Origin: Methylacidiphilales bacterium
GTDB lineage: Bacteria > Verrucomicrobiota > Verrucomicrobiia > Methylacidiphilales > UBA1321
DNA length: 64,000 nt
Assembly (NCBI GenBank): GCA_026225555.1
Contig: JAMFSY010000151.1
Location: forward strand, 62,001-126,000
Direction of reading: 5' to 3'
A model generated the notes under the pieces. It was not told where the DNA came from, made no database searches, and worked only from the letters and a program-made list of their open reading frames with translations. This document shows positions 2,166 through 55,543 of the stretch, piece after piece; positions within the stretch are counted from its first letter, which is position 1; the number at the start of each line of letters is the position of its first letter. The position numbers were made by a program, and so were the translations under genes.

Positions 2166-3137
2166 GTGAACGATTTAGGCTCTTCACAACCGGCAAGCCA
2201 TCTCATGGACTCTTCTCTCCTGCAACTTTTCACGGCCCAAGAATTACTCCAGCGGCTCAGCGAGAAATCGAGCACGGGCGCGCTCCACGCCTTCACGCCC
2301 AAGGAATCGGCCAACATCTTCTTCAAGGAAGGCAAGATCATCGGAGCGGCCAAGGGTCTCGTCGAAGGCGAGGAAGTGGTGAAGCAGATCATGGAGTGGA
2401 AGGAAGCCCGCTTTGTCTGGCAACAGGACTGCCCGCTCGTTTCCCTCACGAAACCGATTGAAATCGAGTTCGAGGACTTCCTGATCAAGGTCAAGGCCGC
2501 GCCCAAGCTGGAGATCGGCGGCAAACTCGTCGGATCGGAAACATCCTCGATTCCGCCCAAGCCCGTTCTCGACGAATCTCCTGCGGAACTTCGGAGCACG
2601 GGCAAAGTCTTCGCCAAGGGAGCGCCCCTCCCGCCCAAATCGGCGGGAGTCGAGCCCGCGCCCATTTTCATCACCATCCCCTCCAAGGCGGCGACCACGG
2701 GCCGCATCGAGCCAAAAACTTCGAGCGGTCCAACAGCCGCCACGGAAGTGCCCGCGCTCACGGCCACAAAGAATATCAACTCGACCACGCCCGAAGGGCG
2801 GGTCAGCCGGGAGGAAGCGCTGTTGCGGAAGTTCCCCCTCTCCCTGGCTTCGGCCGGTGATGGACCGCAAAAGCGGCTGAAAATCACCCGGCTTAGCAGC
2901 CTCATCGGACGCAACCCGGCCTGTGATTTCACGATCGAGAATGGTTCGATTTCCCGCCAGCACTGCCTCCTGCAAATCACCGACCGGGGACTGCACGTCA
3001 AGGACCTCGGCACGACGAATGGCACGAAGGTGAACGGGATTCCGCTCACCGAGGGTTACGTCAACGTGGGCGACAAGCTCATGGTCGGCAACCTGGCCTT
3101 CCTGGTGGAGAAGGACGAGATCGACGTCGAGGCCTAG
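2166..3137 (+). CDS. DUF4388/PATAN-like plus C-terminal FHA domain protein
   Basis: N-terminal LLQLFTAQELLQRLSEKSSTGALHAFTPKESANIFFKEGKIIGAAKGLVEGEEV; C-terminal RLSSLIGRNPACDFTIENGSISRQHCLLQITDRGLHVKDLGTTNGTKVNG (FHA). Confidence 0.85.
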   Translation: MNDLGSSQPASHLMDSSLLQLFTAQELLQRLSEKSSTGALHAFTPKESANIFFKEGKIIGAAKGLVEGEEVVKQIMEWKEARFVWQQDCPLVSLTKPIEIEFEDFLIKVKAAPKLEIGGKLVGSETSSIPPKPVLDESPAELRSTGKVFAKGAPLPPKSAGVEPAPIFITIPSKAATTGRIEPKTSSGPTAATEVPALTATKNINSTTPEGRVSREEALLRKFPLSLASAGDGPQKRLKITRLSSLIGRNPACDFTIENGSISRQHCLLQITDRGLHVKDLGTTNGTKVNGIPLTEGYVNVGDKLMVGNLAFLVEKDEIDVEA

Positions 3138-3283
3138 AGCGTTTTTTAATTAGATCGTCGCTCTTTTTCTCCGTCATCCTGAGCTTGTCGAAGGATCAGT
3201 TTTGCCTCGGCAAAGACAACTGAACTGATCCTTCGACAAGCTCAGGATGACAGACTTTAAAGCGACTGGACGTCCTTCCAACC
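3135..3283. repeat. Nested palindromic element, family 1 copy 1
   Basis: Perfect 29-bp arms GTCATCCTGAGCTTGTCGAAGGATCAGTT at 3173-3201 and its complement at 3223-3251; diverged outer arms; left end contains the TAG stop of the FHA gene. Confidence 0.9.
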
Positions 3284-21971: not shown

Positions 21972-24900
21972 ATGAGTTCTACTAACACCTTCGACGAAAA
22001 AGCCACCTCATTTTCGTCCGAAACGAAAGGGGCGGAAATTCAGGTCTTCGTGGCTGGCGTGATCTTTGGCCCCTACACGGAACAGAAGATTCGCCACCGT
22101 ATTGCCGACGGACTTCTTATCCTGACCGATGAAGCGCGGCTGGTGGATACCGAAAAGTGGCTTCCTCTCAGTGAGGTACTGGAACAGATTCCCAACCTTC
22201 CTCCGCCCCCGCCCAAACCGGCACCCACCGCGACTGTATCGGTGCCAATGTCCAGGTTTACCGCGGCGTCTCCCGCGTCGATCCCCGCTTCGCCGCTCAA
22301 AAAATCGGCGTCCATCGCCGCCCCGCAAGTGCCCTTGAATGCACCCGCCACACCGGTGCCAATTCTCGATCCCCTGCCCGTCGTGGTCACGCGACCCAAG
22401 ACGGCACCGCTTGCGGTGCGGAGACCCGTTGGGCCGAAGCCTTCCACCGGGCCGCTCCCCCCCACGCCGCCACCGGCGGCCCCCGACATCGACCCGCGAA
22501 CTTCCATCAGCACTCGCCCGGCAACAACCCCGCTACCGCCACCGCCCCGGCGAACGACCACGAACCTGCCCAAATCGATGGGCATCACGCGAGCCCTGCC
22601 CGTTATCCCGCCTCTTCCTCCTTCGACGCGGACGTCGCCACTGGGCGGGATTCGTTCCAAGATCATTGCGCGGACGAGCCAGGTGGCGCTGCCTGAGTCG
22701 ATCAAGCCAAGTGCGCTGCCATTGATGGGCCGGGCCAGACCCACTCCTGTCGCCAATCCGCCAAGTGCGCCTGTCAATCTTTCCGCCCCAATACCTTTAA
22801 TGGGGCCCACGGCACCGGGTGCAATTGCGCCGAGGCTGCCCGCAACTGCTCCTTCTCTCCACGAGGAAATCCCGACGCCGGAGCCCGTCCCCAAGCTGGA
22901 GGCACTTCCGCCCGCGGCACCGCCGGAAAACGAATTTTTGCCTCCTCCGGTCGCACCGCCGCTCATTTCGCCGGAACCGGCGACTCCCCCAACCGAAGAG
23001 GAACCCGCAGCCAAGCCTCGGGACACGGACAAGGAAATCTCCTTTGCTTCGCCCATTATGTCGGACACGGCTCGGACGACGAGGCCGATTGGCCCATCCG
23101 CGCCGCGTGCGCCTTCTGCTCCGGCCGGAAGTTTTCCGATGTCCTCTTCGGGAGGAATACGCGGAGGCGACACCGTCCCGCTTCCTGCCGTCGCTCGCGC
23201 CGAGGAGTCATCCACGCCCATTCGGGCCGAAAACATCACCTCTTCCGCACCGCCGCCCGTCAAGGCCGTTTCGCGATCGACCCGCCTGATTCCGGTCTCG
23301 TCGATTGCCACCAACGTTCCGACGGATACTCCGGCCAAACCTGCCGCCAAACGCCCACAGACGACCGGGCTCGCGGTCATTCTGCCTCCCCGGAAATCGC
23401 AGGCCTTGCAGGTGCCGCCCCCGATCAAGGGCCGCGACGACAAGACAGCTCCCTCCCCGAAAACCGCTTCCGCTCCGTTGCCGGGACCGAAGGCCTCTCA
23501 GCCCACGCCCGAGCCGGAGCCGGAGATAGCGGAGCCGACGCCCTCCGCTGCTCCGGCGACCGTGCCGCCGCTGGTGGAAGCCAAGGCCCCTACTTTCGCT
23601 CCTTCCTCGACCGTCGCGAACACGGGGAGCCCGAGGCTCATCCGGCAGACCCTGGCGGGAGTGAGAACCAGCGGCTCGCTTTCCTCGGGCACTGTCCCGA
23701 CCACCAAACTGATCCGGCCCAGCCAGGACGAAACACCTGTCGCGCCCGAAGCGAAAAAGTCGGGTCCGCTTCAGTTCCATACCCTTCCCCCCGTAAAAAA
23801 AGAAACCGAGGCTTCGGCCACGCCGGCTGAAGAGCCCCCACCTGTCGCTTCAAAGCGCATCTCGGCCAAGAGAATTCGGGCGCGCCAGCGGCGGCTCATC
23901 TTTCTTTACGTCGGCCTGGGGCTTCTTTTCCTGATCCTTTTCGGAGGTGGAATTTACTATTACCTCTCGATTGGCCCGCAGGAAGAGAAACCGCAGAGTG
24001 AGACTCAGACTCCCAGTCCCGCTCCGGAAAAATCGGAACCGACGCCGCAGGCCAATCCTCCCGCCCCTACTCCCATGACGCCCGCCCCAACGGCGCAGAC
24101 ACCGGCTCCTGCTCCGACGCCCGCACCTTCGACCACGCCTCCGGCGCCCTCCGTGTCCACACCGACACCCGCGCCAGCGCCCGCACCCGCCGCAACCACT
24201 CCGGGATCCGATCCAAAGATCGCCGCCCTCGTCGCCTCCGGTCAGGCCAAGCAAAGCCACGGCGATTTCGACGGCGCGATTGCCGACTTCAGCCAAATCA
24301 TCACCCAGGCCCCGACTTACGCTCAAGGCTTCAGCTACCGCGCGGCCGCCAAGCAGGCCAAGGGCGACCTCGACGGCGCCATCGCCGATGACAACCAGGT
24401 GCTGGCCCTGGAACCGCACAACGCCAGTGCCTTTTCCCAGCGCGGCTTCATCAAGCAAACCAAGAACGATCCCGACGGCGCGATTGCCGATTATACCCAG
24501 GCCCTTTCCTTCGATCCGAAGTCCTATATCGCCTTCTATAATCGCGGCCTGATCAAGGAACAAAAGGGAGATATCGACGGCGCTATTTCCGATTACAACC
24601 AGGCGCTCGATCTTAACCCACGGCTGGCCGGGGCCTTCTACAACCGGGGCAACGCCAAGAGCGACAAGGCCGATCTGGACGGCGCCATCGCCGATTACAC
24701 GCGCGCGCTGGAGATCAATCCGAAGATCGCCATGGCCTATTGCAACCGCGGACTGGCGGAACAGAACACGAGCAATCTCGACGCCGCCTTTCTCGACTAC
24801 AACCAGGCCATCGCGCTCGATCCGAAAATCTCCGTCGCCTTTTACAATCGCGGCTTGATCAAGGAACAGCGGGGCGATCTCGACGGTTCCATCGCCGACA

Positions 24901-25415
24901 GTTCGAAGGCACTCGAACTCGATTCGAAGAACGCACAGGCCTATTACAATCGCGGCGTCGCGCAGCAGGCCAAGGGCAATCTTGATGCCGCCGCGGACGA
25001 TCTCCAAAAATTCGCATCGTTGGCCCCGAAGAACCTATATGCCGACTACGCCCATCTTTACCTGTGGGTGATCCAGACGCAGCAGGGCCACAAGGCCGAT
25101 GCCGACAAGGCGCTCTCCGACGCGCTGGAGGGCAACTGGAACGCGGAACCGGCGGAACTGCCTTCGAAGATCGCCAACTTCCTGCTCGATCACCTGAGCG
25201 AAAGCGATCTCATGGCCGTGGCCGCCTCCTCGGACGCGAAGAAGGACCAGGGCCAGCACTGTGAAGTCTGGTATTTTAGCGGCATGAAAAAATTGCTCTC
25301 GGGCGATAAGGCCGGCGCGGTCGATTCCTTTCATCGCTGCCTGAACACCGGCCAGAAAGATTTCTGCGAGTACATCCTGGCTCAAGCCCAGCTTCAGGCG
25401 CTCGGCCAGGATTAA
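21972..25415 (+). CDS. GYF_2-like domain, long Pro-rich region, TM helix and TPR array protein
   Basis: VFVAGVIFGPYTEQKIRHRIADGLLILTDEARLVDTEKWLPLSEVLE (GYF_2-like), ~600-aa Pro/Ala-rich stretch, RLIFLYVGLGLLFLILFGGGIYYYLSI TM, eight TPRs. Confidence 0.85.
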   Translation: MSSTNTFDEKATSFSSETKGAEIQVFVAGVIFGPYTEQKIRHRIADGLLILTDEARLVDTEKWLPLSEVLEQIPNLPPPPPKPAPTATVSVPMSRFTAASPASIPASPLKKSASIAAPQVPLNAPATPVPILDPLPVVVTRPKTAPLAVRRPVGPKPSTGPLPPTPPPAAPDIDPRTSISTRPATTPLPPPPRRTTTNLPKSMGITRALPVIPPLPPSTRTSPLGGIRSKIIARTSQVALPESIKPSALPLMGRARPTPVANPPSAPVNLSAPIPLMGPTAPGAIAPRLPATAPSLHEEIPTPEPVPKLEALPPAAPPENEFLPPPVAPPLISPEPATPPTEEEPAAKPRDTDKEISFASPIMSDTARTTRPIGPSAPRAPSAPAGSFPMSSSGGIRGGDTVPLPAVARAEESSTPIRAENITSSAPPPVKAVSRSTRLIPVSSIATNVPTDTPAKPAAKRPQTTGLAVILPPRKSQALQVPPPIKGRDDKTAPSPKTASAPLPGPKASQPTPEPEPEIAEPTPSAAPATVPPLVEAKAPTFAPSSTVANTGSPRLIRQTLAGVRTSGSLSSGTVPTTKLIRPSQDETPVAPEAKKSGPLQFHTLPPVKKETEASATPAEEPPPVASKRISAKRIRARQRRLIFLYVGLGLLFLILFGGGIYYYLSIGPQEEKPQSETQTPSPAPEKSEPTPQANPPAPTPMTPAPTAQTPAPAPTPAPSTTPPAPSVSTPTPAPAPAPAATTPGSDPKIAALVASGQAKQSHGDFDGAIADFSQIITQAPTYAQGFSYRAAAKQAKGDLDGAIADDNQVLALEPHNASAFSQRGFIKQTKNDPDGAIADYTQALSFDPKSYIAFYNRGLIKEQKGDIDGAISDYNQALDLNPRLAGAFYNRGNAKSDKADLDGAIADYTRALEINPKIAMAYCNRGLAEQNTSNLDAAFLDYNQAIALDPKISVAFYNRGLIKEQRGDLDGSIADSSKALELDSKNAQAYYNRGVAQQAKGNLDAAADDLQKFASLAPKNLYADYAHLYLWVIQTQQGHKADADKALSDALEGNWNAEPAELPSKIANFLLDHLSESDLMAVAASSDAKKDQGQHCEVWYFSGMKKLLSGDKAGAVDSFHRCLNTGQKDFCEYILAQAQLQALGQD
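24225..25040 (+). repeat. Eight tandem 34-aa (102-bp) TPR units
   Basis: e.g. AFYNRGLIKEQKGDIDGAISDYNQALDLNPRLAG repeated with exact 34-aa phasing. Confidence 0.85.
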
Positions 25416-38238: not shown

Positions 38239-40725
38239 ATGAGCGAACCCGATTTCTCTCTCCCTGAGCGACCACCGCCCCGGCGCCGAAGGATCGCCGC
38301 GACCGCACTCCGGATCTCCCGTTTCGCCTGCCTTTCGGCCCTCTTTCTCAGTTTCACGTCGCTTCTTGGCTGGGTGCTTCATAACAACACCCTGAAGGCA
38401 TTTGACCCGGCGCATGTCAGTATCAAGACCAATGACGCCGTTTGCTGCGCTCTCGCCGCCTTGGCCCTCCTCCTCAGCTACCTCAGCTACCCGCATCGCT
38501 GGCATGCCTACCTTCGCTGGATCGTGGCCGGGATCATTGCCCTTATCGCCGTTGCCACGCTGGTCGAGTATGCCGCCCATGTCTCCCTGGGAATCGATGA
38601 ACTCATTTTCAGCGACACTCCTCCCGGGCCTGGCACGTTTTATCCGGGGCGGATGGGCCCCAATGTCGCCGTCGTTCTGCTCTGTTTCGCTGCCGCCCTG
38701 CCTCTTCTTTCCCGTGGCAAGGCCGGGGCGGCGTTTGCACAGACCCTGGGCATCACCGGCCTTTTCATCGCGGTTCTGGCCGCCTTCAGTTACGTCTTCA
38801 GCGGGGGAATCTTCCTCTCGTTCTACCACTTTACCCGGATGTCGTTTCCCGACATCGCCTGCTTCATCCTGCTCGGGATCGCCATCCTGGGAATTCGTCC
38901 CAACCGCGGTGTGGTCGCCATGTTTCTGGCCGACAATCCCGGCGGCCTGGTCGCACGACGTCTGGTTGGACCGGTCCTTCTGGGGCCGGTGGTCCTGGGC
39001 ATGCTCGCCTTTCGCGGACTGGCTCTCGGTTATTATAACGAGGCCTTCACCGGGCTTCTCGTCATCTTCTCCAACCTCGCGGTCGGCTGCCTCATCACGC
39101 TCCGCAGCATCACCTCGCTCAATCAGATCGATTCCGAACGCAGGCGCTTGAACGAAGCCCAGGTCCACGCCGAGATCCGGGAACAGGGCACGCTGGAAGC
39201 CTCGCGATTGAAATCGGAATTTGTCGCCAATGTCAGCCACGAGCTGCGCACTCCTATGAATGGCGTCCTGGGCATGACGAACCTCCTGCTCGGCTCCCCT
39301 CTCACTCCGGAGCAGCGCGAACAGGTCGAGACCATTCGCCAGAGCGGCGATGCGCTCCTCACTTTGGTCAACGAGATCCTCGACTTCTCCAAGATCGAAG
39401 CGGGCAAGGTGGAGCTCGAGCACAAACCACTCCATCTCGGCGCCTGCGTGGACGAGGTCGTGGCCCTGGTGGCGCCAATGGGCCGCCGCAGTCGGATCAA
39501 CCTGATCGCCTTCATCGATCCGAGTCTGCCCACGACCTTCCTGGGCGATACCGCCCGCCTGCGGCAGATCCTCATCAACCTCATGGGCAACGCCATCAAG
39601 TTCACCAGCGAGGGCGAGGTGATCCTCGAAGTGAACGGCGTCGTGCGGGAGGATAACCGCCACGAGATCAATTTCGTGGTCAGCGATACAGGCATCGGGA
39701 TTTCCCCCAACGCGCTGCCCCTGCTCTTCCAACCTTTTCAACAGGTTGACGCCTCGGCCCGGCGCAAGCACGGCGGCACCGGCCTGGGCCTGACCATCAG
39801 CAAGCGACTTGCGGAACTTATGGGTGGCGAAATCCACGTCTCGAGCATTCTGTCCATCGGCTCGACCTTCCGATTCAGCGTCCCGCTTCAATCCGTTCCC
39901 GGCACCCCGCCGGATGAGCAACTGCCCCCTTCCACCCGCGTCGTATTGATCGCCCGGGGCGGCAAATATCCGAGTCTGCTCCAGCGCCAGTTGGAGGCAT
40001 GGGGAGCTGATGTCCTCGCCGTACCCAACCCGCTCAGCATGCTCCATCCCCAGGATGCGCGGTTTGCCGCCGTCCTCATGGATCGCGACGAGGAAACGAT
40101 TCCGATCATCCGCCAGATGCAGGCCGATCCGATGTGGAAGGACGTGCCCAAGGTTCTGCTCGATTTCGGCGATCCCCTGCTCGAAGAGGACAAGCTCCTC
40201 TTTGCCAAGCGGATGCCCAAGCCTTTCAAGCGGAACCATCTTCATGCGTTTCTGCTCGAACGCACCGGCACGCAGATGGTGCATTCGCTCTCGCGGATCA
40301 CCTCCCCGCTGCACCAGATACCGCTCGCCCAGAAGCTTCCGTTGCGCATCCTCCTCGCCGAGGACAATTATATCAATCAGAAGGTCGCCGTCGCCCTGCT
40401 CGGCCGCTTCGGTTATCGGGCGGATGTGGCCGGCAACGGAGCCGAGGCGCTCGAGAGCGTGGTCCGCCAACCCTATGACCTCGTTTTCATGGATATCCAG
40501 ATGCCGGAAATGGACGGCATCGAATCGGCCCATGCCATGCGCCGCAAGCTCAAGGAACGCTGTCCCAAGCTCGTGGCCCTGACCGCAAACGCCTTCCCCG
40601 GCGCCCGTGAACAATATCTCGCCGAGGGTTTCGACGATTACCTGAGCAAACCGCTCGTCGCCGATGTCCTGCGCCAGGTGATCACCCGCATGGGTGAAGC
40701 CTCCCGGCCCGTGGCGGTGAGTTAG
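38239..40725 (+). CDS. Membrane hybrid histidine kinase (HisKA-HATPase-degenerate REC-REC)
   Basis: N-terminal TM helices; [65 protein letters not shown]...[16 protein letters not shown]. Confidence 0.93.
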
Positions 40726-40884
40726 ACCGCTTTCCAATTAAATGGTCGCATCAAAAATCAGTCATCCTGAGCCTGTCGAAGGATCAGTTTCGCCTCAGTA
40801 AAAGCCAAGAGGCAACCCACACGTGTGTGCAGCAAGCTCAGGAGGACTGACTTTAGAGCCACTATCTAAATGGAAATCGCTCTA
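40723..40884. repeat. Nested palindromic element, family 1 copy 2
   Basis: Outer arms TTAGACCGCTTTCCAATTAAATGGTCGC... and complement of CCTTAGAGCGATTTCCATTTAGATAGTGGC...; core GTCATCCTGAGCCTGTCGAAGGATCAGTTT; CACACGTGTG module at 40818-40827 in the right arm. Confidence 0.88.
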
Positions 40885-45920: not shown

Positions 45921-46077
45921 GCTTGGGAGCTTTCTAAAAAAGGCGGTCATCCTGAGCTTGTCGCACACACGTGTGGCAGGATCAGTTCAGATGCCTTGCC
46001 GAGGCAGAACTGATCCTTCGACAAGCTCAGGATGACCAGCTTTTTGGAGAGTGAGCCTTTTTTAGCAAGCTCCTAGG
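45921..46077. repeat. Nested palindromic element, family 1 copy 3
   Basis: Outer arms GCTTGGGAGCTTTCTAAAAAAGG (45921-45943) / CCTTTTTTAGCAAGCTCCTAGG (46056-46077); core 45946-46036; CACACGTGTG module at 45966-45975 in the left arm. Confidence 0.9.
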
Positions 46078-46405
46078 AACCGGAATCCAAGCTCGCTTCC
46101 CACCACTGCCGATAAGCCGGCGCAATTTCCTCCGGGCTGATCGCCACGACCTCGGGGCATTCGTAGGAATGGTGCAGCGCAATCAGCTCCCGCAAGACCT
46201 CGAATTGCTCTGCCGAGCTTTTGATGAGTAACTGCACTTCCGCCGTGACTTCGAGCTTCCCCTTCCACCGATAGTGGGACTCAACTCCGGGAACCAAGCT
46301 CACGCAGGCGGCAAGATGCTCCGCCCCCATGATGACCTGGGCCAATTTTTGCGCCTGCTCCAGGGAAGGCGCCGTGACAAAAACGATTCGAGGGGTGAAG
46401 GACAT
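46073..46405 (-). CDS. cutA: CutA-like divalent cation tolerance protein
   Basis: RIVFVTAPSLEQAQKLAQVIMGAEHLAACVSLVPGVESHYRWKGKLEVTAEVQLLIKSS, YECPEVVAI. Confidence 0.92.
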   Translation of the reverse strand: MSFTPRIVFVTAPSLEQAQKLAQVIMGAEHLAACVSLVPGVESHYRWKGKLEVTAEVQLLIKSSAEQFEVLRELIALHHSYECPEVVAISPEEIAPAYRQWWEASLDSGS

Positions 46406-54949: not shown

Positions 54950-55456
54950 ATGAGAAGGTATTTTCCACCGCTCGCCCTTCTCGCCATTAGTTACGTCCTC
55001 TTTTTCGCTTACGTTTATTCCTCGTATGACAGCCTGCCATCCAAAGTGGTGAGTCACTTCGACATACTGGGCCGTCCCAACGGTTGGATGAGCCGTTCCC
55101 AAGTCATCACATTCACCTTGGGATTGGGAATCTTCCTCCCCGCAATTATCGTAGGGACGATGGCGGGCGCAGGCTCTATCCCAGTCAGTTTTGTGAATCT
55201 TCCCCATCGCGAATACTGGCTCGCACCCGAGCGACGCCTAGCCACAACGGCGGTGATGCTAAAATTTGGACTTTGGTATGCCATTCTGAACGTGCTTTTT
55301 GTCACAGGCCTGCATGCCCTGATCGTGCAGGCGAATACGCGGCCCGGCGATCCGAGCTTGAATGGAGCTGGAATGATCGTCCTTCTCGGCAGTTTTATTC
55401 TTGGGACAGCCATTTGGGCCATCCTGCTCCGACGGTGCTTTGCGCGGAAATCTTAG
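54950..55456 (+). CDS. DUF1648-type membrane protein
   Basis: DSLPSKVVSHFDILGRPNGWMSRSQ (DUF1648-like) plus TM helices. Confidence 0.75.
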   Translation: MRRYFPPLALLAISYVLFFAYVYSSYDSLPSKVVSHFDILGRPNGWMSRSQVITFTLGLGIFLPAIIVGTMAGAGSIPVSFVNLPHREYWLAPERRLATTAVMLKFGLWYAILNVLFVTGLHALIVQANTRPGDPSLNGAGMIVLLGSFILGTAIWAILLRRCFARKS

Positions 55457-55543
55457 ACCATTTCCCAATCTAAACGGCCGCGTCAAAATTGCCGTCAGGA
55501 TGACCGAAGTTTTTGAAAGTGAGCCTTTTTAGCAATCTCCTGG
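55453..55543. repeat. Nested palindromic element, family 1 copy 4 (core deleted, chimeric arms)
   Basis: Left arm TTAGACCATTTCCCAATCTAAACGGCCGCGTC resembles the left arm of copy 2; right arm GGATGACCGAAGTTTTTGAAAGTGAGCCTTTTTAGCAATCTCCTGG resembles the right arm of copy 3. Confidence 0.75.

Follow-up and report, generated by a model that had tools for sequence, protein, structure and literature searches.

The DNA analysed here (the window, 64,000 nucleotides) belongs to a Methylacidiphilales genome of 4.09 Mb in 180 contigs, 94% complete (G000), and holds copies of a palindromic repeat at four places. Copy 3 is a complete element of 149 bp with type B ends (45925–46073). It abuts a CutA-like ORF on the minus strand (46073–46405), the TAG stop codon of which (46073–46075, minus strand) is made up of the end of the element and the flanking TA (46074–46075); on the left the element is flanked by CTTG, a decayed CTAG (45922–45925). 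The core of copy 3 (45946–46036) is built from a pair of inverted REP-like arms (GTCATCCTGAGCTTGTCG...CGACAAGCTCAGGATGAC) with the loop, and reads GTCATCCTGAGCTTGTCG-CACACACGTGTGGCA-GGATCAG...CTGATCCTTCGACAAGCTCAGGATGAC, so that the left arm is as an earlier, sequence-only reading of this DNA had described it. Within that arm a side-hairpin insert, CACACACGTGTGGC, lies on the plus strand (45964–45977) in place of one A of TCGAAGG. The core is enclosed by a short type B outer end on the plus strand (GGAGCTTTCTAAAAAAGG; 45926–45943) and a long type B outer end on the minus strand (46037–46073), which has an asymmetric extra segment (minus-strand reading GGAGCTTGCTAAAAAAGGCTCACTCTCCAAAAAGCTG). 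No Rfam family matched above its gathering score, the top match, RF02901, reaching 29 bits against a cut-off of 97; the sub-threshold match on the minus strand of 45945–46037, to AaHKsRNA41 (29 bits, cut-off 97), has a similar palindrome, GCUGAGCUUGCCGAAGC, in its consensus.

Copy 2 (40725–40882) is likewise complete, at 158 bp, with type A ends, TA flanks on both sides (40723–40724 and 40883–40884), the insert in its right arm (40817–40829, minus strand; CACACACGTGTGG on that strand) and a reversed loop. The insert had been placed at the equivalent point of this arm, and the junction is indeed the same; the arm itself is not fully equivalent, its inner GGATCAG segment adjoining the insert having been deleted. 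Copy 1 (3137–3274) has type A ends and no insert, and its right boundary is approximate owing to decay of that end. The outer arms of copy 3 thus differ from those of copies 1 and 2, as had been noted. Copy 4 (55456–55540) is an 85 bp deletion remnant of a recombinant element that has lost most of its core; its left end is of type A and its right end of type B. Elsewhere in the window, seven tandem units of 102 bp (24248–24956) lie within a coding region and are probably TPR-like, at 34 residues per unit.

Anatomy and copy number of the element

The element, present in well over a hundred copies in the genome, is a small mobile palindromic DNA repeat of about 140–160 bp. Imperfect terminal inverted repeats enclose a core in which inverted REP-like arms, two in number (GTCATCCTGAGCTTGTCG-AAGGATCAG), surround an asymmetric loop (..TTGCCT..TTTTACCGAGGC..). 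Allowing one mismatch, a whole-genome search for the arm CCTGAGCTTGTCG gave 316 matches, against 5 for the reversed control. The plain arm, free of the insert, is widespread in Verrucomicrobia among the matches listed, which also include single matches in Bacteroidetes, WPS-2 and Pedobacter assemblies. A blastn search of the copy 3 element against plasmids and phages returned no match, and nothing relevant to the arm sequence was found in the open-access literature.

For comparison of whole elements, 75 two-armed copies were extracted from 1.40 Mb of the genome. Their outer ends, the sequences of which are found almost only in elements, fall into two groups, A and B, with unequal pairing and with mixed A/B elements in addition; short B was paired with long B in 23 elements, A1 with A2 in 10 and A3 with A4 in 6. 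In the congener G007 the same core and insert are enclosed by a different terminal repeat, GAGACCTCTGC, which also encloses unrelated cores of about 270 bp; the occurrence of one core inside unrelated terminal repeats, and of one terminal repeat around unrelated cores, indicates that cores and ends have been exchanged. The suggestion that these parts behave as exchangeable modules was accordingly borne out, outer arms, cores and insert occurring in many combinations. One G007 subfamily (L147–L166 and L190–L203) is homogeneous: its copies share the terminal repeat GAGACCTCTGC and have the insert always in the same arm.

Position, polarity and folding of the side hairpin

The insert had been read as a self-complementary CACACGTGTG. 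Sites of that sequence are real, but the inserted segment is the 14 nt CACACACGTGTGGC, which replaces one A of TCGAAGG. A minority of element copies carry it, always at one fixed point; since the sampled regions (1.44 Mb) were picked partly for known elements, the insert-bearing fraction among the extracted copies is biased upwards. Exact CACACGTGTG occurs at 23 sites in the genome and at none in the backwards control, and the window holds two of them, in copy 3 (45966–45975) and copy 2 (40818–40827). All 23 lie inside an element arm at the same junction, and none was found anywhere in G000 outside the element. A chance palindrome is excluded by these counts, and the proposal of a lateral hairpin at one fixed point holds genome-wide; the outcome that had been named as contradicting it, an insert at random positions or absent from all other copies, is not what the collected copies show. 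A scan of 40 genomes for CACACACGTGTGGCAGGATC, allowing two mismatches, counted 29 occurrences in G000, 11 in G007 and a single one in each of G002, G006 and G010. Open-access literature on MITE and REP families yielded no description of an insert of this kind, and we know of none.

When elements were oriented by their asymmetric loop, 22 of the 27 readable G000 copies had the insert in the same arm (p=0.0015), and the homogeneous G007 subfamily was uniform in this respect (17 of 17 copies). These figures do not support free insertion into either arm. Copies 2 and 3 both have the majority polarity. Their inserts do stand in opposite arms in window coordinates, as had been observed; relative to the loop they occupy the same arm, and because the loop of copy 2 is reversed, the apparent opposition is an effect of element orientation. 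No element was seen to carry the insert in both arms. In one element (L189), the partner arm may bear a deletion scar of an insert. The insert is independent of outer-end class (9 of 22 A-type and 10 of 24 B-type elements, Fisher p=1) and is found with all outer-end types and several loop types. Simple vertical descent is not enough to account for the five readable copies of opposite polarity; an insert of one sequence family, mostly in one arm and never in both, fits a single origin followed by spread and shuffling.

Comparison of 19 distinct inserts was used to decide which part of the insert is conserved. In the register G-CACA-[4 nt]-TGTG-(G)-C, 93.7% of cells are paired. Three cells of its CACA[4]TGTG stem are compensatory; they belong to two pairs, each with A-U changed to G-C. 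Covariation support is moderate, since the count of double-changed cells was matched by 16 of 500 shuffles. No compensatory change was seen in the CACACGTGTG palindrome register of the same inserts. A longer register that takes in part of the arm (CTTGTCGCAC...GTGTGGCAGG) was also considered and set aside, as it showed no compensatory changes though it is favoured when the arm is folded alone. Some variants, for example CACACTCGTGTG and CACGCACGCGTG, break the palindrome and keep the stem-loop. Judged from these alignments, the data favour a CACA-NNNN-TGTG stem-loop as the conserved part of the insert, rather than the perfect palindrome first proposed. The variants also speak against the insert being bound by a symmetric CACGTG-binding protein. 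The wider idea that a dimeric regulator or a nucleoid protein binds CACACGTGTG as double-stranded DNA draws on its being a perfect palindrome of 10 bp, present 23 times; with the palindrome broken in these variants and the motif nowhere in the genome outside the element, we regard it as very improbable.

RNA and DNA fold models alike predicted a single long hairpin for full elements (−85.8 kcal/mol, z = −11.2), branching at the insert into a three-way junction; this agrees with the expectation that the insert turns the stem into such a junction, and it favours a stem-loop of the single strand over a protein site on the duplex. A CGTC REP unit would be expected to have a stem of 8–9 bp and a loop of 4–5 nt. 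A single arm (ATCCTGAG-CTTGT-CGAAGGAT) needs tandem G.A pairs to form its stem, and as DNA its predicted fold is no better than those of shuffles (−2.4 kcal/mol, z −0.7). In the insert-bearing arm of G007, ATCCT..AGGAT is changed to ATCTT..AAGAT, in one lineage only.

Target sites, stop codons and the search for a transposase

Among 45 two-ended copies, TA flanks were found at both ends in 22 and at one end or more in 39. The base outside the TA was a pyrimidine (C or T) at 54 of 61 ends, giving Y-TA-R as the usual context. At the copy 3 locus, the flanking orthologous genes are present in the congeners G006 and G001 and the element is absent, while congener G004 retains a decayed remnant. Relatives are thus polymorphic for presence of the element at this locus, as judged from the flanking genes; the empty site did not align to the exact base, and TA alone is a short duplication.

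Element ends coincide with TAG or TAA stop codons of neighbouring genes, and do so much more often than comparable sites. Within the window such coincidences lie at 3135–3137, where the left end of copy 1 lies on the TAG stop of an ORF (2166–3137), at 40723–40725, the TAG stop of a hybrid histidine-kinase-like ORF, at 40882–40884, the TAG stop of a convergent ORF, and at 46073–46075. Copy 2 (40723–40884) therefore parts two convergent genes, each stopping at an element end, and in its predicted empty site, AGTTAAGG, both stops would overlap on TTAA. Across the sample, 71 ends had a TA, the upstream frame was open for at least 80 codons at 48 of these, and at 41 of the 48 the TAR was the in-frame stop of that frame. 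Of ends facing a gene, with genes taken as ORFs, 28 of 64 fell exactly on the stop, every other distance being represented by at most 4 ends. For elements with a TA end, the stop was located there in 28 of 41; the same rule, applied to 1690 comparable YTAR sites, gave 570 (about 34%; p=7.6e-6), and another candidate-site count gives 21%. The gene calls used were crude (longest ORFs).

The simple reading is that the element inserts into the TA of TAA or TAG and that its first base (G or A) rebuilds the stop. Selection against other insertions could contribute to the excess. Should a proper gene set confirm the preference, it would offer a simple reason for a high copy number in a gene-dense genome. 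A more elaborate version treats the copies as asymmetric hairpin elements, with a mobilising system that targets the stop-codon TA and a terminal base that rebuilds the stop (TA+G or TA+A), so that an insertion would cost next to nothing; the side hairpin would serve as a mark by which an enzyme tells the two arms or strands apart. In this form the proposal is unlikely.

The search of G000 and its genus turned up no transposase bordered by the A or B terminal repeats, although in a genome 94% complete and split into 180 contigs a missed transposase copy is possible. IS630 was discarded as a source of mobility, as no IS630-type DDE_3 gene was found in G000. The single DDE_Tnp_1 of G000 is a broken IS5-like fragment with ends unlike those of the element, and none of the DDE_Tnp_1 loci of the genus carries A or B ends; IS5 was likewise rejected. 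The single Y1_Tnp is IS200-like, with different hairpins of its own and no element arms flanking it. No other Y1 or DDE_Tnp_1 transposase was found in G000, and these two adjoin one another (L046, G000:C101:43415-44621), the IS200-like tnpA with its hairpins standing beside the broken IS5-like gene. A candidate autonomous element in genome G005, marked by B-like ends 1.1 kb apart (L294), proved to span ordinary genes.

Origin of the element and likeness to known repeats

The fixed position of the insert, the copy number, the polarity, the variable partners, the empty orthologous site and the TA flanks are together best explained by a high-copy, non-autonomous, MITE-like palindrome, the side hairpin of which was probably gained once, spread by transposition and shuffled by recombination. 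The 14 nt stem-loop would have entered one arm of an ancestral copy before the members of the genus diverged, and would then have multiplied as elements transposed, presumably by means of a transposase acting in trans. Recombination or gene conversion along the common arms may have carried it between element subtypes. A single strand, whether transcript or ssDNA, would form a long hairpin, the stem of which opens into a three-way junction where the insert lies.

The same fixed junction could also be produced if the side hairpin were an exchangeable cassette, repeatedly inserted at that arm site by an enzyme or by hairpin-directed template switching, and its presence in both arm orientations, with all end classes and with several loop types is what such a cassette would give. 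Repeated insertion is nonetheless unlikely, given a single sequence family, a polarity of 22:5, no element with both arms occupied and no free copies of the insert in G000. Moreover, none of the GTDB species genomes searched, a set possibly without close relatives, contained an exact match to a somewhat degenerate insert pattern. The layout of the arms (GTC-AT...loop of 5...AT-CAG) resembles the description of CGTC REPs (PMC3733652) and Y1_Tnp proteins are present in most relatives, features that would suit arms that are inverted dimers of CGTC-type REPs, moved as folded single strands by a RAYT, with the insert tuning recognition of strand or arm. We consider this quite unlikely: the only Y1_Tnp of G000 belongs with its own IS200-like hairpins, no RAYT flanked by the repeat was encountered, and a single arm as DNA folds no better than shuffles. 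CGTC repeats are reported not to be associated with transposase genes (PMC3733652), and TA flanks with terminal repeats point instead to a DDE-type MITE.

As a MITE-like palindrome spread by transposition, the element has counterparts in the TA-flanked bacterial families ERIC/RU-1, Correia/NEMIS and RUP (reviewed in PMC2229807), with which it shares a length of 100–200 bp, terminal inverted repeats, TA at the ends, a single long stem-loop, an intergenic location and the lack of an encoded protein. Most features of TA-flanked MITEs are thus present, the exception being a cognate transposase, and even for RUP the link to a transposase is indirect (PMC2229807). Its terminal repeats and core differ from those of known TA-flanked MITE families, as far as searched, and unlike ERIC, Correia and RUP it combines one core with two or more different terminal repeat sets, has a side hairpin of 14 nt at a constant position and strongly prefers stop codons.

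The arms, compared with the published text description, resemble CGTC-tagged REPs, for which the tags CGTC, TGTC and CCTC are named (Di Nocera 2013, PMC3733652); those of G000 read NGTC-ATCC, with N often G or A. Their layouts look alike, with a GTC tag, AT at both stem ends, a 5 nt loop and a short tail; both occur mostly as inverted pairs downstream of genes and have no dedicated transposase known. In contrast to CGTC REPs, long terminal repeats enclose the pair, one unit contains a side hairpin and the single unit has no stable fold in the DNA model. GTAG REPs and REPINs with their RAYT transposases are similar as high-copy inverted pairs of short palindromes, but the element has neither a GTAG tag nor a linked RAYT. 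CGTC-like REPs are an orphan superfamily, so far without a known mobilising enzyme; the present lineage embeds CGTC-like arms in TA-flanked terminal repeats, with cores and ends that recombine, and the side hairpin provides an internal marker for tracing the descent and shuffling of copies.

A similarity to the IS5 family was met in G007, where the terminal repeat GAGACCTCTGCAAAAGTC has TGCAAAAGTC in common with both ends of a G006 locus for an IS5-like DDE_Tnp_1, a likeness that is a lead only. No such match was found for the A or B ends of G000, and the apparent G007 duplications are not TA. Some copies of the G007 subfamily are flanked by apparent 5 bp repeats (e.g. TTGCA).
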